From a virus, in IMG/VR virus record IMGVR_UViG_3300028581_000002, positions 1 through 51,834 of that record: DNA of 51,834 nt; one strand, given 5' to 3'. Positions 2,735 through 42,566 of the stretch are shown here, in pieces; the stretch's first letter is position 1, and each line of letters begins with the position of its first letter. The notes beneath the pieces are model-generated. The model was not told where the DNA came from. It searched no databases and worked only from the letters and a program-made list of their open reading frames with translations. The position numbers and the translations under genes are program-made.

Positions 2735-3697
2735 TTAATTTTGTATTTGTAATGTTCCTATGCTTCCAGTCTCAGTTAGAGCCCTAAATTTAAGTTTAGT
2801 CACAACTGTAGGAACGACTCCTTCATTTTCGTACGTACGTTCATCGTAAAACGCAATCGATAATCTATCAGACTCAAACGTTATAGGTAATGTCCTATAC
2901 TCTGTAGCTACTGGTAATTTACCCGTAAGATCTTCATTGTCTAATAGTATCGAATATCTTGATAAGGATATTAATGGTTGTAGTAGCTGTATTCTAAATT
3001 CACATGAAATGCCAACTATAAGATCTTCTATTGAATACGTAGCAACAAAAGACAGCATACTAGTAACTTCATTAGGGAGTGGTAATCTTGCTGGGGTTAC
3101 GTCTGTCCCATATAAAATATCCTCAAGATATGCTAATTTCACTGGATTTATTTTAGTAGAATCGATAGTTATAGACGCTGTAGGTTTGAACCCTGTGGCT
3201 AATACGGGAGTTGTTGATGCCTCCCAGGAATATGTTAATGCATCAGGCGAATCATTAACAGAACTATAACCTGTTTCTGATGGGGCAACTATTGCTCCGT
3301 AGATAAGATGCAACTTATACCCATGCTCTCCGCCATTAACATCATTGCCGATGGATGTTCTATAACACAGCCCGAATGGTTTTCTTTTCTGTTGTTTTAT
3401 TGTTACACCTGGGGTCATTAATCTTGTTCCATCGCAAACCCCAAATTCTTCTGGGTAGGAATATGCCTCAATCGTCAAACCAAGTTCCTCGACAGATAAT
3501 AAGTTTAGATATTTAATATCGTTTGCATACAAGGGACTTGCTTCTGCACCGGAAGGACTTTCGGTTATCGCTGTTAAACCATTCCACGCAACGCCTATAG
3601 GGTAATCGCCACTAATATCCTGAGGATATAGAACTCCCTGACGTATGCCGGTCTCATATAATTTCTTACCTGATTCTCCCCAAACAAGTTTTGGCAT
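2735..3697 (-). CDS. Second major tail tube protein paralogue, C-terminally extended
   Basis: 320 residues. The first roughly 215 residues are closely similar to the major tail protein at 5533..6189: both start MPKL.W.E.GK..YETG.RQG and share AWNGL.A.TESPSGAEA, KYLNL and QKRK/H-x-FGLCYRT. About 100 extra C-terminal residues (from LSFVATYSIEDLIVG) are absent from the short copy. It probably forms part of the tail tube or a specialised end or surface-decorated subunit. It is separated from the first copy by the two tail chaperones and an amidase, suggesting duplication followed by acquisition of a domain. The start has a strong AAGGAGG site. Confidence 0.8.
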   Translation of the reverse strand: MPKLVWGESGKKLYETGIRQGVLYPQDISGDYPIGVAWNGLTAITESPSGAEASPLYANDIKYLNLLSVEELGLTIEAYSYPEEFGVCDGTRLMTPGVTIKQQKRKPFGLCYRTSIGNDVNGGEHGYKLHLIYGAIVAPSETGYSSVNDSPDALTYSWEASTTPVLATGFKPTASITIDSTKINPVKLAYLEDILYGTDVTPARLPLPNEVTSMLSFVATYSIEDLIVGISCEFRIQLLQPLISLSRYSILLDNEDLTGKLPVATEYRTLPITFESDRLSIAFYDERTYENEGVVPTVVTKLKFRALTETGSIGTLQIQN

Positions 3698-5532: not shown

Positions 5533-6189
5533 TCAACCTTCAGCGAATAAGTCCGCAATTTCTGCAGGAAGAGGTAATCTTGCTGGCGCGGTTTCTGTAC
5601 CATAAAGAATACCTTCAAGATCTGCAAGTTTAACTGCATCAACTTTTGTCGAGTCGATTGTTAGAGAAGCAGTTGGTTTGAAGCCTGGAACTGATACTGG
5701 AGTTGTTGTGATTTCCCAGCTAAATGTAATAGCGTCTGGGCTATCGTTAATCGAACTATAACCTTTCTCAGATGGAGCAGCCATCGCGCCATAGATAAGG
5801 TGTAGTTTATAACCATAATCACCTTCCTCAAGGTCGTTACCAAGAACAGTTCTGTAGCATAAGCCAAAGGCGTGTCTCTTTTGTTGACCAATAACAACAC
5901 CTGTAGCAAGTTCAGCAGAACCATCACACACCGCAAATTCGTCAGGGTATGTGTAAGCGTCAAGTGTTGCTCCTAATTCCTCAATAGAAACTAGGTTAAG
6001 ATACTTGATGTCATCGGCATAAATTGGGTTAGCTTCTGCACCAGAAGGACTCTCTGTTACTGCTTGCAAACCGTTCCATGCAACACCAAGAGGATAAGCA
6101 CCATTGGCGTCCTGAGGATACAGAACACCTTGACGTGTGCCAGTTTCATAAAATCTTTTTCCTGTTTCATCCCAAATAAGTTTAGGCAT
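5533..6189 (-). CDS. Major tail (tube) protein
   Basis: 218 residues, starting MPKLIWDETGKRFYETG. Its position after the connector genes and before the tail chaperones, its size, and its strong AAGGAGG site identify it as the tail-tube protein. The core contains AWNGLQAVTESPSGAEA, KRHAFGLCYRT, GYKLHLIYGA and TFSWEITTTPV, typical of phi13/TP901-like tube proteins in gut Firmicutes phages. A paralogue with an added C-terminal region is encoded at 2735..3697. A strong hairpin follows its stop codon. Confidence 0.87.
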   Translation of the reverse strand: MPKLIWDETGKRFYETGTRQGVLYPQDANGAYPLGVAWNGLQAVTESPSGAEANPIYADDIKYLNLVSIEELGATLDAYTYPDEFAVCDGSAELATGVVIGQQKRHAFGLCYRTVLGNDLEEGDYGYKLHLIYGAMAAPSEKGYSSINDSPDAITFSWEITTTPVSVPGFKPTASLTIDSTKVDAVKLADLEGILYGTETAPARLPLPAEIADLFAEG

Positions 6190-19370: not shown

Positions 19371-19925
19371 TTACCCCCTTGTTTTTAATTGTTCAATCTT
19401 CTTATCAAAATCAATTATAGTATCCATAATGTTAAATATTTCTTCTGGTTCAGGAATATAAATAAAAGCCTCATCATACTGATATATACGAAGTTCTATA
19501 TCAATGTCAATAGGTTTAATTTTATACTCTAAACAGAATATAGCGGTATAAACTAAGAGTTGTTTGATGGACGCCTGGGTATCTCCATTTTTTAAATCAT
19601 GAATTCGAAGAATATTTTTTCTAAAAGATATGGCATCTGCTGTTCCAAAACAGTTATCCGAATAATATAAAATTTGCTCACATTTCATCTTATAACCTAT
19701 AGCATCATTTACATATAGGTTTAGAGTTTTATTTGTTTTTGGCAGTTTAACGCCAAGATTTATAAGTCTACAAGCAAGGTCATGGAGATCTGTGCCTCTT
19801 TGAATTGCTCTAAATTTGGAATAAGTTGAAAATAATTTTTCTTCATCATAATTAATCCAATGGTATTTGCTAGCGCTCAGAAAAGCATGATGCCCTTCTA
19901 GGCCTAAATGTGTGTTGAAGTTCAT
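19371..19925 (-). CDS. PD-(D/E)XK nuclease, Cas4/RecB-like
   Basis: 184 residues. FGTADAISF followed about a dozen residues later by RIHDLKNG, then IKQLLVYTAIF, gives the GxxD...(D/E)xK...Q pattern of RecB/Cas4-type nucleases. An upstream RGTDLHDLA supplies a helical acidic element. It overlaps the preceding VRR-type nuclease gene by 56 bases, and its stop touches the start of the RNA polymerase-like gene, so all three are likely co-translated. Probable role: DNA end processing in replication or recombination. Confidence 0.72.
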   Translation of the reverse strand: MNFNTHLGLEGHHAFLSASKYHWINYDEEKLFSTYSKFRAIQRGTDLHDLACRLINLGVKLPKTNKTLNLYVNDAIGYKMKCEQILYYSDNCFGTADAISFRKNILRIHDLKNGDTQASIKQLLVYTAIFCLEYKIKPIDIDIELRIYQYDEAFIYIPEPEEIFNIMDTIIDFDKKIEQLKTRG

Positions 19926-21554: not shown

Positions 21555-22082
21555 TTATTCGTCGTGTGACTTACAACTACCATCGCAAGCATCGCAGTTC
21601 AGACAACCGCCTATGGTCTCTACTGCACTATCTGGAATATCTCTATATTTGCGCTCAAACTCATCCTCTGCAATGACAACATACATTGACTTCACATAGG
21701 CCTTTACTCCGCTCTTTCCACTAACTTCCCAATTATACGGACGAAGTATAAGATCAACCTCTTCTATTTCAGCCCAATCCAAAAGGGATACAGACTCATC
21801 ATCAAGAATTGATTTGCCTCTGCTTGTCATGATTATTATTTTTGGAGGTACATTTTCAAAACTAACAGATACTTGCATATATGCTTGTGGATCATCTTGA
21901 TCGTCTTTTGGCTCTAACCATCTAACGTTCCATCCATCGTTTATCAGTTGTTCTGCTAACTCGCCTTCTAAGAACACGCAGAAATTACGTCTTCCTGCAG
22001 GGTTAAACTTACCCTCTTTTCCACTAAAATTACGAAACGCTATATGCGCATTTTCAATTGATATATTACTTTTTACTATCAT
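21555..22082 (-). CDS. Probable single-stranded DNA-binding protein
   Basis: About 175 residues. GGAGA selects ATG 22082 (MIVKSNISIENAHIAFRNF). The text 'FSGKEGKFNPAGRRNFCVFL', 'WNVRWLEP' and 'VDLILRPYNWEVSGKSGVKAYVKSMYV' matches a family common beside phage polymerases and helicases, where an OB-like ssDNA-binding role is proposed. The C-terminus has a cysteine cluster (CLNCDACDGSC) that may bind a metal, and an acidic tip (KSHDE) like ssDNA-binding protein tails. Role inferred from family memory and position. Confidence 0.65.
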   Translation of the reverse strand: MIVKSNISIENAHIAFRNFSGKEGKFNPAGRRNFCVFLEGELAEQLINDGWNVRWLEPKDDQDDPQAYMQVSVSFENVPPKIIIMTSRGKSILDDESVSLLDWAEIEEVDLILRPYNWEVSGKSGVKAYVKSMYVVIAEDEFERKYRDIPDSAVETIGGCLNCDACDGSCKSHDE

Positions 22083-28052: not shown

Positions 28053-28994
28053 TTAGATGAGATCGTTAATAACACCATCAACATTGAAGTCAAGTAATAT
28101 ATTGCGTTCGTTGCCGTTGACAAATGCTCTAGCGCGTTCTCTATCTCCGTCAAATATACCGAAATCTATGAAACTATCACCCTCGCCAAACACCCAACCA
28201 ACAACCGACCCTGGTTTAGTTCTTGGAATACCAAGTGCATCATATACCTCGTTTAGGAACACGTGCCCACGAACCTTAAGCATCTCATTATGGTAACTTT
28301 GTTGACTTCTTAGGAACATTAGATTATATTCCGCGTTCTTAGACCATTGAGTACATGACTCATCATAAAATCTAGCATACAAACTTGGTACGCCTGGATC
28401 TTTAATCATGTTTGTTTTCTTAACTTTACGTACTTTCCCGTCTTCATCAACTTCATTTTCTGTAACAACTTCGCTTCGTAGACCGTTTTTATACATGTAG
28501 TCTGCTTGCTCGCCATGTTCCTCTACAACACGTTTACGATATGCATTAAAACTTTCTTCAACAGCCTTATAAGCAGCCATAAGTGCAACGTTACGTGTTT
28601 TCATGATACCGTGTGCGCCAATAATACAAGCAATAGACGCTATACCAAGCGTAATGGCTGGACCGTAAAGCTTAACAAATTCAACACTTGTCTGTACATA
28701 TGTTACTGTTAAATCTTTTCTATGATCATTTTCGGAATATTCGTCAAGAGAAATATCTCCCTCTTTAACCTTTTCCCAACAATCGTTAATTTTTTCAGCT
28801 TTCGCTTTGTGGTTGTCAAGAACCTCTTCAACTTTAAGAGTTGCACGACAAGCCAATACAGCGGATACAACTGTCCCAGCTACACCAACCACTAATAAGA
28901 TTTCAGGACTGTTTTTTTGCATTACTAGACCGGTACGGCCAGTAATTTTAGAAAGATCTTTCGTTACATTACTCAATACATTTGCTATTTTCAT
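28053..28994 (-). CDS. DUF6353-like membrane protein, copy 1
   Basis: 313 residues. Two hydrophobic helices (about 29-50, ILLVVGVAGTVVSAVLAC; about 110-130, AITLGIASIACIIGAHGIM) flank a short charged loop; a long soluble C-terminal domain follows, with EVYDALGIPRTKPG and GWVFGEGDSFIDFG. A second protein with the same plan is encoded at 37860..38663, sharing the KNSPEI/QNSPTI start. This family is common in gut phages and has no known function. The start has GGGGAC at good spacing. Confidence 0.75.
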   Translation of the reverse strand: MKIANVLSNVTKDLSKITGRTGLVMQKNSPEILLVVGVAGTVVSAVLACRATLKVEEVLDNHKAKAEKINDCWEKVKEGDISLDEYSENDHRKDLTVTYVQTSVEFVKLYGPAITLGIASIACIIGAHGIMKTRNVALMAAYKAVEESFNAYRKRVVEEHGEQADYMYKNGLRSEVVTENEVDEDGKVRKVKKTNMIKDPGVPSLYARFYDESCTQWSKNAEYNLMFLRSQQSYHNEMLKVRGHVFLNEVYDALGIPRTKPGSVVGWVFGEGDSFIDFGIFDGDRERARAFVNGNERNILLDFNVDGVINDLI

Positions 28995-29169: not shown

Positions 29170-29201
29170 TAGTTTATCTCCTTTCAAGAAATAAAAAATA
29201 T

Positions 29202-29276
29202 GAGAAGACGATACTTTGTTTCCGCTACTGTCACCCTATACTGGTGTATTCACGCAACAAAACTAATCGTCTCCTC
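29202..29276 (-). ncRNA. Structured leader RNA R0 closed by an 11-bp stem
   Basis: Immediately downstream of a conserved TATAAT, the first 11 bases (GAGGAGACGAT) pair with ATCGTCTTCTC 75 bases later with one G-U pair. Inside are a TTTGTT/AACAAA stem and a CACC/GGTG hairpin with a seven-base loop. A U-rich tract and a ribosome site follow. The stem starts within the promoter discriminator, so the exact 5' end matters. It is either a 5' leader for the 49-residue protein or a stand-alone RNA. Confidence 0.55.
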
Positions 29277-29302
29277 ATTATAGACTCTGTATTTACCGCG
29301 AA
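29277..29302 (-). promoter_or_regulatory. Conserved phage promoter copy (R0 leader)
   Basis: TCGC, four bases, AATACA, five bases, TATAAT on the minus strand, the same spacing as the other copies. It drives the structured RNA at 29202..29276. Confidence 0.8.
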
Positions 29303-36418: not shown

Positions 36419-36432
36419 GAAGCCTAAGCTTC
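36419..36432 (-). terminator. Repeated terminator, copy 1 (stop codon in loop)
   Basis: On the minus strand GAAGC-TTAG-GCTTC followed by TTTCTTTATTTT. The loop contains the TAG stop of 36424..36702. The 14-base core is shared by three identical and two near-identical copies. Confidence 0.75.
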
Positions 36433-36702
36433 CTTCCCTAATCCTTCATTTTTCTTTTCATTATCTGCTGTCCACACACTTACGGTCTTAACAACTCGGT
36501 CAATCGTATTCTCAAATTTAGTACTTGCTGCTGATGCTGCCATCCCCGCTATAAAGAAACTTCCCACCGCAATACAAACTTTTCCTATTCTTTTTGTACT
36601 GTCAGGGGTTGTTACCTTAATAAGGTTGCCTACAACCGCGCCTACTCCTATTGAGATAACTATTGCTCCTGTTATCTTTACCACATTTAGTGCTTTATTC
36701 AT
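36424..36702 (-). CDS. Small two-helix membrane protein
   Basis: 92 residues. GAGAGGAGA and the promoter at 36731 fix the start at ATG 36702 (MNKALNVVKITGAIVISIGV), far inside the longest frame. Two hydrophobic stretches (10-28 and 43-60), then a polar helix. It ends ...KEA, where GAA-GCT-TAG is the terminator hairpin itself. One promoter-gene-terminator cassette. Function unknown. Confidence 0.72.
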   Translation of the reverse strand: MNKALNVVKITGAIVISIGVGAVVGNLIKVTTPDSTKRIGKVCIAVGSFFIAGMAASAASTKFENTIDRVVKTVSVWTADNEKKNEGLGKEA

Positions 36703-36730
36703 AATAATTCTCCTCTCAAATTTAGATTCT

Positions 36731-36756
36731 ATTATAGAGTGTGTTTTACCCGCGAA
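36731..36756 (-). promoter_or_regulatory. Conserved phage promoter copy
   Basis: TCGC, four bases, AAAACA, five bases, TATAAT. Drives the 92-residue membrane protein at 36424..36702; it overlaps the C-terminal end of the upstream SleB-like gene. Confidence 0.82.
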
Positions 36757-36757
36757 A

Positions 36758-37351
36758 TCAGGACCTTGTGGTGTTTGTTTTACCATTACCATTGAAATAT
36801 ATATGATTTGTTGGTATTGACTGAATACCCGGGGCATAATGATCATATGCTCCACACCATTCTCTAACAACTTTTAAGGCTTTTTCTGATGGTGTTTTTT
36901 TAAGATTCTTAGGCATTACGCTAAATTGATTATCGCTAAGCACAACTTCTTTAACTGTGTCTGGAAATTTGTTAGAATTAACACGATTCATTGTAACGCA
37001 AAGTACTTTCCCAACCTCAGCATAATCAATTTCTTCCATAAAATCAAAATCATATTCTCCATCACCAGATACATCTTTACTACCGCATAATAACTGAGCA
37101 AGTAAATATATTTCTTTTTCTGTGAATCCATATTGCAGTTTGACATGTTCTTCGTAACGTACGTCCGTAACAGGCGCCACTGCTTCTATGTATTTTGCCT
37201 CAACTGGTATTGCGTTTGTAACAATCTCAACATCCGTATGTAAGGCACATCTTGCCATTGTCGCTATCACGAGAATAAATAATAGAAACATTAACAATCT
37301 GTTTAGAATGCTCCTTCTCTGTCTTTCCTCTTTGCTTTTGTATTTTATCAT
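36758..37351 (-). CDS. SleB-like cell wall hydrolase with membrane anchor
   Basis: 197 residues from ATG 37351 (MIKYKSKEERQRRSILNRLL) after AAGGAGAC; the longer frame overlaps another gene. A hydrophobic segment at about 18-34 anchors or exports it. The Hydrolase_2/SleB domain is recognisable: EKEIYLLAQLL, then VGKVLCVTMNRVNSNKFPDTVKEVV, DNQFSVM and a C-terminal HIYFNGNG. In SleB the glutamate of 'YAEA' is catalytic; here the aligned stretch reads CGSKD, so the active glutamate may be missing or moved. It could be an active lysin or a divergent regulator. It is the second wall-hydrolase gene besides the amidase. Confidence 0.75.
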   Translation of the reverse strand: MIKYKSKEERQRRSILNRLLMFLLFILVIATMARCALHTDVEIVTNAIPVEAKYIEAVAPVTDVRYEEHVKLQYGFTEKEIYLLAQLLCGSKDVSGDGEYDFDFMEEIDYAEVGKVLCVTMNRVNSNKFPDTVKEVVLSDNQFSVMPKNLKKTPSEKALKVVREWCGAYDHYAPGIQSIPTNHIYFNGNGKTNTTRS

Positions 37352-37365
37352 GCTTTGTCTCCTTC

Positions 37366-37485
37366 TTATTTCGTATGTGACATCATAAATAATCCTATTA
37401 TGAGTATTATAAATAATATTATATCTAACGCTATAAAACATCCAAGTATAATTTCGTAAACTTGATAATAACAGGTTCTTTTCAT
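37366..37485 (-). CDS. 39-residue membrane protein
   Basis: Starts MKRTCYYQVYEIILGCFIAL at ATG 37485 after TAGGAG. One long hydrophobic helix (about 12-34) and a short polar end. It directly precedes the SleB-like gene, so a role in lysis, such as a small holin or spanin-like partner, is possible but unproven. Confidence 0.58.
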   Translation of the reverse strand: MKRTCYYQVYEIILGCFIALDIILFIILIIGLFMMSHTK

Positions 37486-37500
37486 ACACTCACTCCTAGA

Positions 37501-37538
37501 CAAAAATAAGAAGAGACACTTAATTTCTTAAATGCCTC
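37501..37538 (-). terminator. Strong intrinsic terminator
   Basis: GAGGCATTTAA (minus strand) pairs with TTAAGTGTCTC across a GAAA loop, 11 pairs with two G-T, followed by TTCTTATTTTT. It follows the stop of 37548..37775 and closes that cassette. Confidence 0.85.
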
Positions 37539-37547
37539 TGCTTTATT

Positions 37548-37775
37548 CTATTGTACTACGTTCTCAGCGACTTCGCCAAGGTTTCCAAATCCGTCCATGA
37601 TTGCCCCATCTGGTGACAAAGTGTCCATCGCATCCAGTAGTTCATCGCCTCCGCTAGATAGCTTTCTGATTATTACAATCCCCGCTACCACGCCTACAAC
37701 AATTAATGCTCCTTTAATGATTTTACCTTTGTTTCCTTTGATGAATTCAACCAAGGTACTTTTCTTTTCGTCCAT
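37548..37775 (-). CDS. Small single-helix membrane protein
   Basis: 75 residues. A charged start (MDEKKSTLVEFIKGNKGK) is followed by one membrane helix (IIKGALIVVGVVAGIVII) and an acidic end. AAAAGGAGA supports ATG 37775. It has its own promoter (37813..37838) and terminator (37501..37538). Confidence 0.7.
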   Translation of the reverse strand: MDEKKSTLVEFIKGNKGKIIKGALIVVGVVAGIVIIRKLSSGGDELLDAMDTLSPDGAIMDGFGNLGEVAENVVQ

Positions 37776-37812
37776 GATGATTTCTCCTTTTCAATATAGT
37801 ATTTTTATTTCT

Positions 37813-37838
37813 ATTATAGCCTATGTAATTCTTGCGAG
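37813..37838 (-). promoter_or_regulatory. Conserved phage promoter copy
   Basis: TCGC, four bases, ATTACA, five bases, TATAAT. Drives 37548..37775. Its upstream element is one arm of the inverted repeat at 37831..37854. Confidence 0.85.
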
Positions 37839-37854
37839 CTAAATTAGTCGCAAG
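37831..37854. promoter_or_regulatory. Inverted repeat overlapping the promoter's upstream box
   Basis: CTTGCGA (37831..37837) and TCGCAAG (37848..37854) form a perfect 7-bp inverted repeat around a ten-base centre. One arm is the conserved TCGC box of the promoter at 37813..37838. It could be an operator site or simply a hairpin ending the upstream gene; no T-run follows. Confidence 0.5.
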
Positions 37855-37859
37855 TATAG

Positions 37860-38663
37860 CTATTTCATAAATTTTGGCACGACCTCATAATTCAGAACTA
37901 TGCAAGGTTCGCCCTCTTCTGTAAGTTGAGTGCTAAAAGATATTTCAACTAATCCTTTGTCAAGATCCCAGCCCATTTGATCACCAAGTTTATTTCCTGC
38001 CAATCCAAGCCCATAATATAACTCATTCACAGTCATGAATCCGTCTGTCATTAATGAATGATTAAGATCATTTACAACACGTCTTATTTGCTCAATATCA
38101 TTCTTGAAATATCGTCCGGATAAGCTATCATAACATGTCACACTGCCCTTGCCTGTGAATATAATCTCGTTCTTACTAGCTGGATCCCTTTTTACACGAT
38201 CAGCAGAAATATCATCCCTGACCTTTAATTCTTTATTCTTACCAATAGTCTCGACTACCTTATGCTTGTATTCTTTGAATGCCGCTTCTGTTATACCATA
38301 TAAGCTAGCTAAGGCAGCGTTACGTCGTAATGATATTTGATTAGCACTAATGATACATGCTATGGTTACTGCTCCCATCGTCACTGTAGGAATATAACAC
38401 TTCCAGGTCAACTTCACAATTTCCATCTTCGTCAAATCAGGCAATATCATATCTGGTAGACTATCGTTGTAATATCCTCGATCATCTAACTCCTGGTCCA
38501 TAATTGATAAAGCCCTCGGCGTTGCCTTAACTGCAAATATAACCGTCCCTAAAAGTCCAGCAACAGCAATCCCGGTGAGAATTGTCGGACTATTTTGGGA
38601 AATTACACCCCCGAGGTTTTTTGCCGCTTGAGTTAATCCATTTCCTTCACTAAAACTCTTCAT
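37860..38663 (-). CDS. DUF6353-like membrane protein, copy 2
   Basis: 267 residues, paralogue of 28053..28994. Two helices (about 27-49, LTGIAVAGLLGTVIFAVKA; about 92-110, TVTMGAVTIACIISAN) and a soluble end with TVNELYYGLGLAG and GWDLDKG. AAGGGAG supports ATG 38663. It lies downstream of the tRNA-like RNA and its promoter, with tiny leader frames between. Function unknown. Confidence 0.75.
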   Translation of the reverse strand: MKSFSEGNGLTQAAKNLGGVISQNSPTILTGIAVAGLLGTVIFAVKATPRALSIMDQELDDRGYYNDSLPDMILPDLTKMEIVKLTWKCYIPTVTMGAVTIACIISANQISLRRNAALASLYGITEAAFKEYKHKVVETIGKNKELKVRDDISADRVKRDPASKNEIIFTGKGSVTCYDSLSGRYFKNDIEQIRRVVNDLNHSLMTDGFMTVNELYYGLGLAGNKLGDQMGWDLDKGLVEISFSTQLTEEGEPCIVLNYEVVPKFMK

Positions 38664-38757
38664 TTGTGACTCCCTTCAAGATTTAATCTTCTGTGGTTTG
38701 CATGTCATACTAGCACATTATAAACATGATATTTCTCCTTTCAAGAAAAATATAAAA

Positions 38758-38843
38758 AGAAATGTACAGGATTCGAACCTGCGACATCTAGTGCTTCCAT
38801 ATAATTTCCGCATCTATCGCTCTACCAACTGAGCTAACATCTC
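38758..38843 (-). tRNA. tRNA-like gene R1, anticodon uncertain
   Basis: 86 bases. A seven-pair acceptor stem (GAGATGT with ACATTTC), TA at 8-9, a standard D arm (GCTC-AGTTGGTA-GAGC) and a perfect T arm (GCAGG-TTCGAAT-CCTGT) are clear. The 36 bases between the D and T arms do not fold normally: the best anticodon stem (ATAGA/ATTAT) has a mismatch and its loop TGCGGAA lacks the usual U33. The region is 13 bases longer than in ordinary class I tRNAs. No CCA is encoded; a T-rich tail follows. The promoter's -10 box ends only four bases upstream. It may be a decayed tRNA or a tRNA mimic. Confidence 0.6.
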
Positions 38844-38847
38844 TTTC

Positions 38848-38873
38848 ATTATAACCTGTGTAATTTTCGCGAA
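38848..38873 (-). promoter_or_regulatory. Conserved phage promoter copy (tRNA-like RNA)
   Basis: TCGC, four bases, ATTACA, five bases, TATAAT. The expected start of transcription falls at or within the first bases of the tRNA-like acceptor stem. Confidence 0.85.
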
Positions 38874-38878
38874 TTTAA

Positions 38879-39010
38879 CTAATCCTTTGCAATCAACCGT
38901 AGGATAAATGCTCCTGTTACTAACACGGTTCCAACGAGTAATTCCTCCAATATCTCCTTCTTCCTATTTTTTCTGTACTCTTTCACAACTACAAAATTCT
39001 GTTTTGACAT
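38879..39010 (-). CDS. 43-residue membrane protein
   Basis: AAAGGTGGG selects ATG 39010 (MSKQNFVVVKEYRKNRKKEI), well inside the longer frame, which would cover the structured RNA. A basic soluble start and one helix (LLVGTVLVTGAFILRLIA). It is the first gene after the leader RNA at 39040..39115. Confidence 0.62.
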   Translation of the reverse strand: MSKQNFVVVKEYRKNRKKEILEELLVGTVLVTGAFILRLIAKD

Positions 39011-39039
39011 GGCATTCCCACCTTTCAAATAAAAATAAT

Positions 39040-39115
39040 GAAGGGTAATCTTTCTCCAATCCACGGGTATGTGGTTCACGAATCGAACGTGACTTCCTAA
39101 TAAATTTTACTCTTC
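39040..39115 (-). ncRNA. Structured leader RNA R2, 76 bases
   Basis: The first nine bases (GAAGAGTAA) pair with the last nine (TTACCCTTC) with one mismatch. Inside are a five-pair stem TCACG/CGTGA with the seven-base loop TTCGATT, and a CCAC/GTGG hairpin. The length equals a tRNA, but D and T arms are absent. U-rich bases and the ribosome site of 38879..39010 follow. It is a stable 5' leader or an independent RNA. Confidence 0.55.
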
Positions 39116-39141
39116 ATTATAACATGTGTAATTTTCGCGAC
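39116..39141 (-). promoter_or_regulatory. Conserved phage promoter copy (R2 leader)
   Basis: TCGC, four bases, ATTACA, five bases, TATAAT. It differs little from the copy at 38848..38873. It abuts the stop of the ligase gene. Confidence 0.85.
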
Positions 39142-40389
39142 CTATCTGCCAGCACAATTGTAGCAATACAACTTCCTTGTTTTCTCGTTTTCCACGACTG
39201 TGGTTTCTTCACCACAAAATGGACATTTACGTGGATACTGTTCTGTGTTAGATCTTGTTAGATTCTCTTTAACTTCTGGAACTATTTTGTTCGCTTTGAA
39301 TACATCTAACTTATCACCAACTCCAACCATCAGGTCCTCAAATATCTTTAATGAGTGTAAATTTGCTTGTTTGACAATAGTTCCCTCAAGTGCTAACGGT
39401 TCAAACAATACTACAGGTGTAATCAATCCTGTTGCGCTTACACTCCATTTCATGCCGGTTACAGTGGTTAATGCTGATATATCCGGCCATTTAAACGCCA
39501 TACTATGCTTGGGGAACTTAGCCGTAGTACCTAATGAGTTGCCATATTCTATATCATTAAGAGATAACACAAGACCATCCACAGGGAACTCGAAATTCTC
39601 AACCCCGTCCGTATAATGCTGTATTTGGTGTTTTAATTCAAAATTCAACACTTTAGAATATGGTACAACATTGAATCCAAAATCCCTTAAATGCTCTAGT
39701 TCTTCACTTCTCTGTGTAGTATGCCAAGGTAATCCTTGGAGTAATACAACAGAATGAGCAACAAAAGATATATGTCTTAATAAGATAGACGTCGTTTTAC
39801 TAGCGTTTATAAGTCCTGCTACCATGTTACGAGGATTACTGAATCTTTCACCTTCTTGAGTCTTCTTAATTTGAGCAAACTCACTGATCGATAGACAACC
39901 TTCCCCACGGACAATTACTTCGCCCTTCATAGACTTCATATTTATGGTTTTTGGTACATTACGCATGAGTATAACATTCTTAGTAATGTCCTTACCATAA
40001 TGACCATCTCCGCGACTTACAGCTCTTTGTAATATACCGTCTAAGTAATATAATACAATGGACATACCATCGAGCTTCCATGATAATATACCTTCTCGTT
40101 CGCCTAGGAAATATAGCAAATCATCTATATTTTTGGTATCCTTTAGCGAAAGAATAGACATATAATGCCTTATCTTACCATCTTGAAGCTCTTCAAATCC
40201 AACTTTTGTTGTCGGCGACTCATATAGGGTTACGCCCGTATCTTCTTCCAGGCTTGATAGTTCAGATAAGAACCTATCGTATTGTCTATCAGTAATAGGC
40301 GATTCGTCTTCACCGGAATAATACTTACTCCTAGCATCGTATAGAATATCAATTAAATCCGCCATACGCGCTTCCTTATTAAGATCCAT
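39142..40389 (-). CDS. ligA: NAD-dependent DNA ligase, shortened
   Basis: About 415 residues from ATG 40389 (MDLNKEARMADLIDILYDAR), chosen by AAAGGAGA. The Ia domain (ARSKYYSGEDESPITDRQYD) is followed by the nucleotidyltransferase with the adenylated lysine in KLDG (105-108), the OB fold (GMKWSVSATGLITPVVLFEP) and the four-cysteine zinc finger (CPFCGE...LYCYNC). The HhH and BRCT domains of the cellular enzyme are absent, as in other compact phage ligases. It seals nicks during phage replication using NAD+. Confidence 0.94.
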   Translation of the reverse strand: MDLNKEARMADLIDILYDARSKYYSGEDESPITDRQYDRFLSELSSLEEDTGVTLYESPTTKVGFEELQDGKIRHYMSILSLKDTKNIDDLLYFLGEREGILSWKLDGMSIVLYYLDGILQRAVSRGDGHYGKDITKNVILMRNVPKTINMKSMKGEVIVRGEGCLSISEFAQIKKTQEGERFSNPRNMVAGLINASKTTSILLRHISFVAHSVVLLQGLPWHTTQRSEELEHLRDFGFNVVPYSKVLNFELKHQIQHYTDGVENFEFPVDGLVLSLNDIEYGNSLGTTAKFPKHSMAFKWPDISALTTVTGMKWSVSATGLITPVVLFEPLALEGTIVKQANLHSLKIFEDLMVGVGDKLDVFKANKIVPEVKENLTRSNTEQYPRKCPFCGEETTVVENEKTRKLYCYNCAGR

Positions 40390-40431
40390 GATAATTTCTC
40401 CTTTCAAGAAAAATATAAAACTGCTTTGTAA

Positions 40432-40599
40432 TCACAGCGAAAAGAAGAAGCCTAAGCTTCCATCTTTTTGTTTCTTCAAATATTGACGTTCCTTTATTAC
40501 TCTTACTAATGCCATCATACCAGTATCAATAATCTTAACTGTGCTATATACGCCCAATACCATTATTACTACTGTTATTACTTTACTAGTTTTATCCAT
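40432..40599 (-). CDS. 55-residue membrane protein
   Basis: Starts MDKTSKVITVVIMVLGVYST at ATG 40599 after TTAGGAGGA. One membrane helix, then a basic tail. The end (GSLGFFFSL) is encoded by the terminator hairpin at 40447..40460 read in another frame from the -EA genes. Driven by the promoter at 40629..40654. Confidence 0.62.
   Translation of the reverse strand: MDKTSKVITVVIMVLGVYSTVKIIDTGMMALVRVIKERQYLKKQKDGSLGFFFSL
40447..40460 (-). terminator. Repeated terminator, copy 2
   Basis: GAAGC-TTAG-GCTTC followed by TTCTTTTC on the minus strand. Here the hairpin lies inside the last codons of 40432..40599. Confidence 0.7.
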
Positions 40600-40628
40600 T
40601 ATAAATTCCTCCTAATATTTTATCTTTC

Positions 40629-40654
40629 ATTATATGCTAAGTAATACTCGCGAG
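40629..40654 (-). promoter_or_regulatory. Conserved phage promoter copy
   Basis: TCGC, four bases, ATTACT, five bases, TATAAT; drives 40432..40599. It immediately follows structured RNA R3. Confidence 0.85.
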
Positions 40655-40661
40655 GCAAATA

Positions 40662-40802
40662 AAAAGAATCCGTCGTCGCGTCGAACTGACTATCGCGGCC
40701 CCAATTACTTTATACTTCCTAAGACCGTCCGTTTTCGAGTTGCCACTCTTTCAGGCTTTATTGTTGTAGACAGTTACCTCTACAATCAAACTCTATTCTT
40801 TT
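40662..40802 (-). ncRNA. Stand-alone structured RNA R3, about 141 bases
   Basis: The transcript from the promoter at 40804 carries no convincing gene before the next promoter. Its first bases AAAAGAAT (40795..40802) pair perfectly with ATTCTTTT (40662..40669), which runs into a T-rich tail. A seven-pair hairpin TTGTAGA/TCTACAA with an eight-base loop (40764..40785) and a GAGT/ACTC hairpin lie inside. With its own promoter and end, it is the strongest candidate here for a true small RNA gene. Confidence 0.6.
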
Positions 40803-40803
40803 C

Positions 40804-40829
40804 ATTATACGCTAAGTAATTGCTGCGAG
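40804..40829 (-). promoter_or_regulatory. Conserved phage promoter copy (R3 RNA)
   Basis: TCGC, four bases, ATTACT, five bases, TATAAT. It starts eight bases after the terminator hairpin of the upstream cassette and has only R3 downstream before the next promoter. Confidence 0.85.
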
Positions 40830-40836
40830 CAAAGAA

Positions 40837-40851
40837 GAAAGCCTAAGCTTC
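40837..40851 (-). terminator. Repeated terminator, copy 3
   Basis: GAAGC-TTAG-GCTTTC followed by TTCTTTG on the minus strand, just after the TGA of 40857..41057. One base longer on its 3' side than copies 1, 2 and 5. Confidence 0.68.
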
Positions 40852-40856
40852 TCCTT

Positions 40857-41057
40857 TCAACTAATTTCAAATCGTTCCAATTTCATAATTTCGATTAATA
40901 TCTTTTTGTATGATGCGTCATCTATTTCTCCAATACTATGAAGTTCCTTGTAACATGCAATTGCGTTAGCACGTCTTAAAGAATCTCCTATAGTGTTTAA
41001 TGAGGGTATAGCTTGTAATGCATTTCCTAACCATTTACTATGTTCTCCATTAGTCAT
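40857..41057 (-). CDS. Small soluble protein of unknown function
   Basis: 66 residues, helical (MTNGEHSKWLGNALQAIPSL ... YKKILIEIMKLERFEIS), without a membrane helix, unlike most neighbours. AGGAGGA supports ATG 41057. It has its own promoter (41084..41109) and terminator (40837..40851). Confidence 0.65.
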   Translation of the reverse strand: MTNGEHSKWLGNALQAIPSLNTIGDSLRRANAIACYKELHSIGEIDDASYKKILIEIMKLERFEIS

Positions 41058-41083
41058 TTTAGTTCCTCCTATAATTTAGTTTC

Positions 41084-41109
41084 ATTATAACCTATGTAAT
41101 CCCCGCGAG
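41084..41109 (-). promoter_or_regulatory. Conserved phage promoter copy
   Basis: TCGC, four bases, ATTACA, five bases, TATAAT; drives 40857..41057. The terminator of the preceding gene ends about 12 bases upstream. Confidence 0.87.
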
Positions 41110-41120
41110 GAAGAAAAGAA

Positions 41121-41135
41121 GAAAGCCTAAGCTTC
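41121..41135 (-). terminator. Repeated terminator, copy 4 (stop codon in loop)
   Basis: GAAGC-TTAG-GCTTTC followed by TTCTTTTCTT on the minus strand. The TAG in the loop is the stop of 41127..41390. Confidence 0.72.
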
Positions 41136-41390
41136 TTCGTTTTTCCTTATTCCCATGATACGTTCTACCTCTGAGAATAACTCTTCACGTCCTTGATTAG
41201 TCAATCCTTCTTTTTTCTTTTTACTATTAAGTACCATTTGCATTCCTTCCAAAACTGGTTTCAATTCATTATACTTACTGATACGTCCATCGTAATATCT
41301 CATTTGACCATAACCTTTTACAAGTATTGCCAAACTACTTATTACTCCTAAACCTATAGTAATCAATAATGCTTTTTCACTTTTGTTCAT
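41127..41390 (-). CDS. Small membrane protein ending in -EEA
   Basis: 87 residues. Starts MNKSEKALLITIGLGVISSL with one membrane helix, then a charged helical domain ending RIMGIRKNEEA. The final Glu-Ala-stop is the terminator stem and loop. Promoter at 41420..41445; AGGAGGA supports the ATG. Function unknown. Confidence 0.7.
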   Translation of the reverse strand: MNKSEKALLITIGLGVISSLAILVKGYGQMRYYDGRISKYNELKPVLEGMQMVLNSKKKKEGLTNQGREELFSEVERIMGIRKNEEA

Positions 41391-41419
41391 AATATAATCC
41401 TCCTAATAATTTTTATTCT

Positions 41420-41445
41420 ATTATAGGACATGAATATTATGCGAG
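41420..41445 (-). promoter_or_regulatory. Conserved phage promoter copy
   Basis: TCGC, four bases, TATTCA, five bases, TATAAT; the most divergent middle box of the set. Drives 41127..41390. Confidence 0.75.
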
Positions 41446-41446
41446 A

Positions 41447-41815
41447 CTATTTTGTTAGTTCTTTCATGTAGTCTCTTTTTTCTTCACCGACTCCGGAACA
41501 ACATTTCATTTTTGTTAGATCCTCGTCCACAACCGCACGTAAAAGTAATAGATAGTTGATATGGTCTGTAATTTTCTCATTCCACATCTCAACCGAATAG
41601 TCCTTGTTACTTGCACACATATCATAGACCGATACTGTATGCTTAGCCATCATACCAGCAAGTGCAAAACGTGTGCTACAACCTTGTAATTCAGCAGCCA
41701 CCTTAAAGTTATGTAATCTATCGTCTGTTGCATATTCTACAGCCTTCTGTACTAATACATCCGTAGAACGTTTAATCTGTTCATCTAGTACCTTGTTAAA
41801 ATCTTCTGTTTTCAT
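41447..41815 (-). CDS. DUF1599-like protein
   Basis: 122 residues from ATG 41815 (MKTEDFNKVLDEQIKRSTDV) after GGAGG. VEYATDDRLHNFKVAAELQG, FALAGMMAKHTVSVYDM and EKITDHINYLLLLRAVV match the helical family known as DUF1599, proposed to be linked to nucleotide modification. Substrate unknown. Assignment is from memory of the motif. Confidence 0.65.
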   Translation of the reverse strand: MKTEDFNKVLDEQIKRSTDVLVQKAVEYATDDRLHNFKVAAELQGCSTRFALAGMMAKHTVSVYDMCASNKDYSVEMWNEKITDHINYLLLLRAVVDEDLTKMKCCSGVGEEKRDYMKELTK

Positions 41816-41834
41816 TTGTAATTCCTCCATATTT

Positions 41835-41954
41835 TTATTTTTTGTTAGATTTTAGTTCTTCTAATTCTTTCTTTTGCTCATTGTACATACAAATTAATCC
41901 TACGAGTAATATTGTCTCTATGCCAATTATTGCTCCGAATATGAAATTCACCAT
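41835..41954 (-). CDS. 39-residue membrane protein
   Basis: Starts MVNFIFGAIIGIETILLVGL at ATG 41954 after GAGGAGG; one helix then a charged coil (EQKKELEELKSNKK). Translated just ahead of 41447..41815. It lies downstream of terminator copy 5 and has no obvious promoter of its own. Confidence 0.6.
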   Translation of the reverse strand: MVNFIFGAIIGIETILLVGLICMYNEQKKELEELKSNKK

Positions 41955-41987
41955 TGATTAACCTCCTCTCCAATATGTAAAAAGAAA

Positions 41988-42001
41988 GAAGCCTAAGCTT
42001 C
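41988..42001 (-). terminator. Repeated terminator, copy 5 (stop codon in loop)
   Basis: GAAGC-TTAG-GCTTC followed by TTTCTTTTT on the minus strand; the loop TAG is the stop of 41993..42121. Confidence 0.76.
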
Positions 42002-42121
42002 CTCTTGTACTTCTACATCTTCTGTTCTGTTGATCCATAAAACGCCTTCGATAATTACGGGTATCAATAATAGCAATCCAATATACATTGCTTCTCTTGT
42101 TTCCATAAATTTCATAAACAT
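41993..42121 (-). CDS. 42-residue membrane protein ending in -EEA
   Basis: GAAAGGAGA fixes the start at ATG 42121 (MFMKFMETREAMYIGLLLLI), not the longer frame. One membrane helix, then an acidic end VEVQEEA whose last codons are the terminator stem. Promoter at 42153..42178. Confidence 0.66.
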   Translation of the reverse strand: MFMKFMETREAMYIGLLLLIPVIIEGVLWINRTEDVEVQEEA

Positions 42122-42152
42122 TTTTATAATCTCCTTTCTATAATATAGTTCT

Positions 42153-42178
42153 ATTATAGGCAATGTTTTGAATGCGAG
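42153..42178 (-). promoter_or_regulatory. Conserved phage promoter copy
   Basis: TCGC, four bases, AAAACA, five bases, TATAAT; drives 41993..42121. Confidence 0.85.
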
Positions 42179-42211
42179 GGAAAATATAAGACCATCTGTA
42201 AACAAAACGAA

Positions 42212-42239
42212 AAGGGGAAGGCGTGTTGTTACACACGCC
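42212..42239 (-). terminator. Intrinsic terminator with stop codon in loop
   Basis: GGCGTGT-GTAACA-ACACGCC followed by TTCCCCTTTT on the minus strand. The loop holds the TAA of 42229..42513. A different sequence from the repeated terminator but the same design. Confidence 0.8.
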
Positions 42240-42513
42240 CTTTTAAGACAAACCCCATTGCTTTACTTGTTATCACATTAACATCTTCATATGCAACAAT
42301 TATTATTATACCTAACAAACTACCTGTTACGGTGGCTATTGTATCCCAGCTAATCTTTCGATCTTTTACTTTACTTTGCGCATCGTAAAGTGTAGCTAGG
42401 TTCTTCGCCATCGCAGTGTATTCCTCTGTGTTCGGTTCTAATTGTTTCATCTTTGTCAATATTGATTCCATTTCTTTCGTCAAACTGTCTGTCTTTTTTT
42501 GCTTAAATATCAT
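42229..42513 (-). CDS. Small membrane protein of unknown function
   Basis: 94 residues. GAGGAGA fixes ATG 42513 (MIFKQKKTDSLTKEMESILT). A charged coiled-coil half, then one hydrophobic helix (VTGSLLGIIIIVAYEDVNVI). The last residues KGRV-stop form the terminator stem and loop. Own promoter at 42541..42566. Confidence 0.68.
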   Translation of the reverse strand: MIFKQKKTDSLTKEMESILTKMKQLEPNTEEYTAMAKNLATLYDAQSKVKDRKISWDTIATVTGSLLGIIIIVAYEDVNVITSKAMGFVLKGRV

Positions 42514-42540: not shown

Positions 42541-42566
42541 ATTATAGCGCGTGTTTTAATTGCGAG
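42541..42566 (-). promoter_or_regulatory. Conserved phage promoter copy
   Basis: TCGC, four bases, AAAACA, five bases, TATAAT; it begins at the stop codon of the holin gene and drives 42229..42513. Confidence 0.85.

Follow-up and report, generated by a model that had tools for sequence, protein, structure and literature searches.

Why should unrelated genes of a phage end in the same short hairpin and, with it, in the same last amino acids? The question is raised by the IMG/VR virus record IMGVR_UViG_3300028581_000002, a linear contig of 51,834 bp from an uncultivated virus that was analyzed in full (hereafter, the window); nearly all of its genes are on the minus strand, as are the window hairpins, promoter motifs, payloads, ligase gene and predicted recombination genes described below. 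A sequence-only reading of this contig had proposed that the identical ends reflect cassettes exchanged by recombination at shared promoter and terminator sequences. Comparison with related phages suggests that the shared protein ends reflect both exchange at shared linkers and selection for a compact “stop-terminator” (a terminator hairpin with the stop codon in its loop), and that, judging from the sequences, this selection is at least as important as the exchange.

The 13-mer GAAGCTTAGGCTT occurs five times in the window, always on the minus strand. A search of both strands with the 14-mer GAAGC-TTAG-GCTTC, allowing up to two mismatches, gave eight matches where 0.25 would be expected, a count reached in 0 of 100 shuffles. 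The exact 14-mer was confirmed at 36419-36432, 40447-40460 and 41988-42001; the two one-base variants (GAAGCTTAGGCTTT) are also real, although each lies one base from the start first given for it (40838-40851 and 41122-41135, rather than 40837 and 41121). All five copies have the T-rich run described earlier on their 3′ side as read on the minus strand. In three unrelated genes, GAA GCT lies in the 5′ arm and TAG in the loop, so that the stem encodes the final Glu-Ala and the loop supplies the stop: the phrog_7539 gene at 36424-36702 (92 amino acids, ending GKEA), the gene at 41127-41390 (87 amino acids, ending KNEEA) and the gene at 41993-42121 (42 amino acids, ending QEEA), the latter two encoding small proteins with a hydrophobic stretch.

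The remaining two of the five copies do not serve as stops. Before the one at 40838, the gene at 40857-41057 (66 amino acids) has already ended in TGA; the one at 40447 is read through in another frame by the gene at 40432-40599 (55 amino acids, ending DGSLGFFFSL). At 40838-40861 an SD-like (Shine-Dalgarno-like) TTGAAAGGAGAA is joined directly to the hairpin, as if an intervening gene had been deleted. A different hairpin (GGGCGTGT..ACACGCC) is used in the same way, with TAA in its loop, by the phrog_5818 gene at 42229-42513 (94 amino acids, ending KGRV); the earlier reading had recognized this correctly, but the hairpin is better placed at 42218-42241 than at 42212..42239.

Could these copies be due to chance or to base composition? 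By our own estimate, a collection as large as this one should contain such a 16-mer a few tens of times by accident, and part of the 52 exact 16-mer matches in viral contigs is therefore due to chance; we dropped the face-value reading of those matches and counted only in-frame use. T-tailed AGCTTAGGCT hairpins number 79 in the collected loci, and in 34 of them an SD-supported open reading frame (ORF) ends at the loop TAG, against 0 of 55 for the inverted hairpin in the same count. With this difference, and with no shuffle reaching the count in the window, chance has a negligible probability. The 34 ORFs belong to 27 families without detectable mutual similarity.

The design extends beyond this one hairpin. 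We scanned by folding around every SD-supported gene end, recording where the loops of T-tract hairpins fall relative to the stop; this replaced an earlier count with strict gap-free stems, which had missed several hairpins of the window. Among 499 gene ends from the window phage and seven of its relatives, 42 had the loop on the stop codon, against one to nine for most other offsets; among 177 from five held-out relatives, which had played no part in framing the question, 23 did (other offsets, 0-7). Among control phages, the numbers were 2 of 206 for Tanis, Uzumaki, HotFries and SPbeta, where hairpins peak 20-30 nt past the stop, and 4 of 194 for SPO1, A118 and EF24C (Fisher p for the 499 and the 177 gene ends, respectively: 5e-5 and 1e-6 with the first control set, 0.002 and 4e-5 with the second one). 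A promoter-like motif, TCGC-N15-TATAAT, of which the window has 11 copies between 29277 and 42565, defined a broader contig set; in that set the loop is on the stop at 21 of 481 ends and the main peak is at +24. All 16 promoter linkers whose terminator includes the stop carry it in the loop, none in a stem.

Orthologues keep this arrangement while the stem itself changes. The GRV tail of phrog_5818 is encoded by GGGCGTGTG, GGAAGAGTC or GGGAGGGTC, each time with its own complementary 3′ arm; in pair counts on 13 sequences, two pairs have compensated changes and 96% of cells are paired. Where relatives of phrog_5818 have no hairpin, the protein still ends on comparable basic residues, so that in this gene it is the hairpin that was adapted to the protein. 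Another family retains a tail of EEA, EED or EEE, its loop stop being TAG, TGA or TAA, and stop-in-loop ends recur with many different stems in other relatives. Since orthologues retain the design despite changing stem sequence, selection maintains it, and the comparison makes such selection for a compact stop-terminator in orthologues clear.

Is selection enough? Compactness might by itself favor terminators with the stop as loop, with GAAGC-TTAG-GCTTC among the best short solutions that encode tolerable residues, arising repeatedly without any exchange of linkers. The retention of the design by orthologues with unrelated stems, its presence in the held-out relatives and the 27 unrelated families ending in the same hairpin are what convergence of this kind would produce. 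It would also leave stop-in-loop unconnected to gene variability, as we found: in the same interval, 25 of 39 stop-in-loop genes are variable, as are 88 of 135 other genes (Fisher p = 1). What convergence does not readily explain is that genomes have their own “house” hairpins. When the window and its closest relative (G001; 79% DNA identity over 15.6 kb) are treated as one lineage, hairpin similarity is 0.571 within genomes vs. 0.480 between them, a difference reached in 0 of 2000 permutations. There are also private variants and near-identical linkers adjacent to each other within one genome, including two linkers in G001 that are near-identical from the hairpin to the -10 box. Together with hairpins retained while the preceding gene changed (once out of frame) and with RNA cassettes moved between loci, both described below, these observations make convergence alone an unlikely account, if still one to be taken seriously.

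Gene order across the eight relatives indicates how the units behave. Backbone genes (the phrog_5818 gene, the NAD-dependent DNA ligase gene at 39142..40389, the DUF6353 gene and others) keep a constant order; the small genes of the region do not, and the promoter-gene-hairpin units between backbone genes have been gained, lost or replaced. G001 has two extra units, totaling 503 bp, relative to the window, where the spacer of the phrog_5818 gene is joined at TCGCAT to the promoter of the next gene; the junction is at the TCGC of the promoter at 42153..42177, which serves the gene at 41993-42121. This pair is thus a case of a gene with its own promoter and terminator that is present in one phage and missing from that place in a close relative. 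Conversely, a 39-amino-acid gene past the hairpin at 41988 (41835..41954, with no promoter in front of it) is present in the window and not in G001. The phrog_6802 protein (41447..41815, 122 amino acids) ends RDYMKELTK without a hairpin in the window and RDYMKKIEEEA with one in G001.

Between two hairpins common to both phages, the window has the 66-amino-acid gene, an RNA segment and the 55-amino-acid gene, while G001 has one other gene (the 66-amino-acid gene is not at this place). The hairpin at 41122, at the end of the gene at 41127-41390, has a retained orthologue in G001, and that of the hairpin at 40447 precedes the ligase gene there; the 55-amino-acid gene meets this second retained hairpin at an out-of-frame junction.

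Several observations weigh against reading these patterns as exchange. When the window and G001 are kept apart, the within-genome similarity of hairpins is weaker (74 of 2000 permutations), and the stop-in-loop genes are no more variable than their neighbors, as noted above. Further, viable whole-gene insertions and deletions must in any case end between genes, so that junctions in linkers are partly expected. The original proposal thus survives in part: exchange at promoters and terminators is supported by units gained, lost or replaced and by RNA cassettes that moved, their breakpoints lying in promoter and terminator tail, but identical ends alone do not indicate it, since the design persists with fully changed stems.

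The RNA payloads are, in our comparison, the strongest evidence for cassettes. At a locus after the ligase gene (locus X), the window has a promoter (39116..39140) followed by an RNA of about 75 nt (39035..39117); in G001 that promoter is present too, but the RNA after it is another one, ending in a tail like that of the window. The RNA of window locus X is found in G001, at about 95% identity, at another locus (locus Y), where the window (promoter at 29277..29301) has a third RNA between like flanks (29201..29275, its ends closed by an 11-bp stem) that differs from the G001 payload. The junctions are at TATAATGARGAG and in the tail CTTCATATTTTT. Similarly, a predicted tRNA-Pro(cgg) at 38757..38844, with its promoter at 38848..38872, matches a unit of another relative (G004) from promoter to T-tract, this homologous block lying elsewhere in G004, at a different position relative to the ligase gene.

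The movement of these payloads also bears on whether the hairpins could drive exchange as site-specific recombinase sites or as cruciform breakpoints. Such a role would fit the identical sequence found at unit borders, but the RNA payloads moved without the GAAGC hairpin, at promoter and tail sequences, and variable regions persist in relatives that do not have the hairpin sequence; we therefore consider this role very improbable.

The analysis also reveals a new covarying RNA family, which is promoter-driven, structured, about 96-124 nt long and carries a hairpin resembling a tRNA T arm (AGTTCGACACTC). It occurs in five relatives and two distant ones (copies at L063:9933-10056, L068:13456-13555, L071:61-157, L073:17501-17596 on the minus strand and L220:6669-6768), with 15 of 29 pairs changed on both sides (0 of 500 shuffles), and had no match in Rfam; its covariance model matched no copy in the window. 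The RNA lies upstream of the ligase gene in G002, G003, G004 and the L220 phage and downstream of it in G001, which indicates that it has moved across this gene.

Many such promoters drive non-coding segments that close on themselves, the first bases pairing with the last ones just before the T-tract. These closed-end RNAs are seen in the window at 29201-29275, 39035-39117 and 40665-40803 and at 38 promoters in the collected loci, and they include tRNA-like and repeat-hairpin RNAs; in L126 (reverse strand, promoters 8564 and 8800) and L105 (reverse strand, 11823), they consist of two or three copies of one small hairpin. The segment at 40665..40803 (promoter at 40804..40828) has complementary ends and a T-tract, but it folded no better than shuffles overall (z -0.28) and had no Rfam match. 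The tRNA-Pro(cgg) prediction measures 88 nt, its middle part being poorly paired and unusually long, and it is followed at 38710-38757 by an orphan ribosome-binding site and a 5-codon ORF, where 27 nt match the ligase gene leader exactly, as if left over from recombination.

At the sequence level, the comparisons establish the architecture, the enrichment of loops at stop codons, the persistence of the design despite stem change and the gain, loss and movement of units, and it seems probable that this is a cassette region in which hairpins act as stop-terminators and identical tails arise from selection combined with linker exchange. The region would extend from the phrog_5818 gene to the replication genes, each unit comprising a shared promoter, a short payload (a small protein, a tRNA or a structured RNA) and, after it, a short hairpin followed by a T-tract. 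Many protein units have this hairpin within the gene, with the last two or three codons as its 5′ arm and the stop codon as its loop, and the T-tract nearly abuts the TCGC of the next promoter, fusing end and start in one linker. The hairpins would terminate transcription, with the stop in the loop tolerated since the hosts would let RNA polymerase outrun the ribosomes. A predicted single-strand annealing protein (phrog_4787, 21555..22082) and a predicted exonuclease (phrog_3953, 19371..19925) may recombine the shared linkers, copying hairpins and the protein tails they encode onto unrelated genes. More tentatively, the stop-terminator could be a portable 3′ module, such that an acquired terminator dictates the C-terminal residues of the protein, and closed-end structured RNAs could form a further part of the cassette cargo, in a repertoire that is large and undescribed.

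Are the hairpins terminators at all? The window hairpins have the form of intrinsic terminators, a GC-containing hairpin followed by a U-tract, but many are weak (about -6 to -12 kcal/mol) and have T-tracts interrupted by C, which counts against the proposed role. Some must also leak, because past the hairpin at 41988 the downstream genes at 41835-41954 and 41447-41815 follow too closely for a promoter to fit in. The same features would suit hairpins that stabilize or process 3′ ends, or act as ribosome-sensitive attenuators, inside longer transcripts. The T-tract directly 3′ of the hairpin, and the promoter within about 5-30 nt in most linkers, are rather what the end of a transcription unit should look like, and we regard these other roles as unlikely, slightly more so than convergence alone.

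Termination so close to a stop codon depends on the ribosome. In E. coli, a trailing coupled ribosome represses a terminator adjoining the stop codon (PMC4824070); in B. subtilis, transcription runs ahead of translation, which explains why terminators can be found close to stops (PMC7858274). From this behavior, a stop in the loop should be workable only where the host is uncoupled or the gene very short, and the stop-in-loop genes here are very short. The window phage and its relatives would thus be a phage group that makes the translation stop and the transcription stop a single element, one expected to fail wherever a ribosome closely trails the RNA polymerase, which predicts a host with uncoupled transcription and translation. 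The terminators near stop codons that are reviewed for B. subtilis runaway transcription (PMC7858274), and those noted to overlap a stop codon (PMC4824070), are likewise within reach of the terminating ribosome; the difference is that the group described here places the stop exactly in the loop, across dozens of families.

How does this system compare with others in which small genes travel with their own signals? Lambdoid “morons,” which are described in prophages, are reportedly single genes with their own promoter and terminator between conserved genes (Juhala 2000; Hendrix 2000). The window units resemble them in being inserted in this way, but they stand in tandem with fused linkers, and among the proteins searched there was no sign of a lysogeny module. 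The nearest precedents, to the extent that the published accounts describe them, are the cassettes of promoter and stem-loop known from T4-like phages and the repeated promoters found in Gordonia cluster DJ phages. The former, called promoter early stem-loops (PeSLs), have been proposed to mediate gene shuffling in variable regions (Arbiol 2010 and Comeau 2014, as cited in PMC4503421). As summarized there, promoter and stem-loop terminator are joined between small variable genes, much as hairpin, T-tract and TCGC-N15-TATAAT motif are fused in one linker between ORFs in the window, in regions of gene gain and loss amid a constant backbone. On that description, the window units work like the T4 cassettes but fall outside their group, because the genome is not that of a T4-like myovirus (given the affinities of its terminase and its DNA polymerase, phrog_4210). 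The window system, with the stop codon in the hairpin loop of many units and RNAs as the payload of some, is then a variant of the shuffling system of T4-like phages, as far as the latter is outlined in that source; the moved RNA payloads are sequence-level evidence for shared promoter-terminator linkers as exchange points outside T4-like phages.

The Gordonia cluster DJ phages Vardy (PMC9671010) and Conley (PMC10868162) have an intergenic 43-50 bp promoter repeat that contains TATAAT, in a central region where small membrane-protein genes and predicted terminators abound. The window motif corresponds to this published motif, which is also matched in the Gordonia phage Tanis, but the terminators of the actinobacterial relatives lie about 20-30 nt past the stop and stop-in-loop is absent or rare in them. 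Nucleotide similarity does not place the window in cluster DJ (Deejayvirinae), as a megablast of 30001-51834 against phage records gave no match; relatives at the protein level are distant. The terminase shares 77-78% identity with its counterparts in Streptomyces, Rhodococcus and human-gut phages, and the DUF6353 (phrog_2152) protein is a distant tie to Arthrobacter, Gordonia and Streptomyces phages. Relative contigs were found via the ligase and via DNA patterns, and distant relatives (about 40% ligase identity) were met in contigs of Lachnospiraceae and Clostridiales metagenome-assembled genomes, where 0 of 53 gene ends had the stop in the loop; these are a hint of a Bacillota host without settling the matter.

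Other copies of the promoter motif in the window are located at 42541..42565, 41420..41444, 41084..41108, 40629..40653 and 37813..37837, and one at 36731..36755 serves the gene at 36424-36702. The DUF6353/phrog_2152 membrane protein has two paralogues in the window (28053-28994 and 37860-38663), a copy number per record that is also common among phages of Arthrobacter and Gordonia. A second pair of paralogues, at 2735-3697 and 5533-6189, belongs to the structural module and is very similar in its N-terminal parts.

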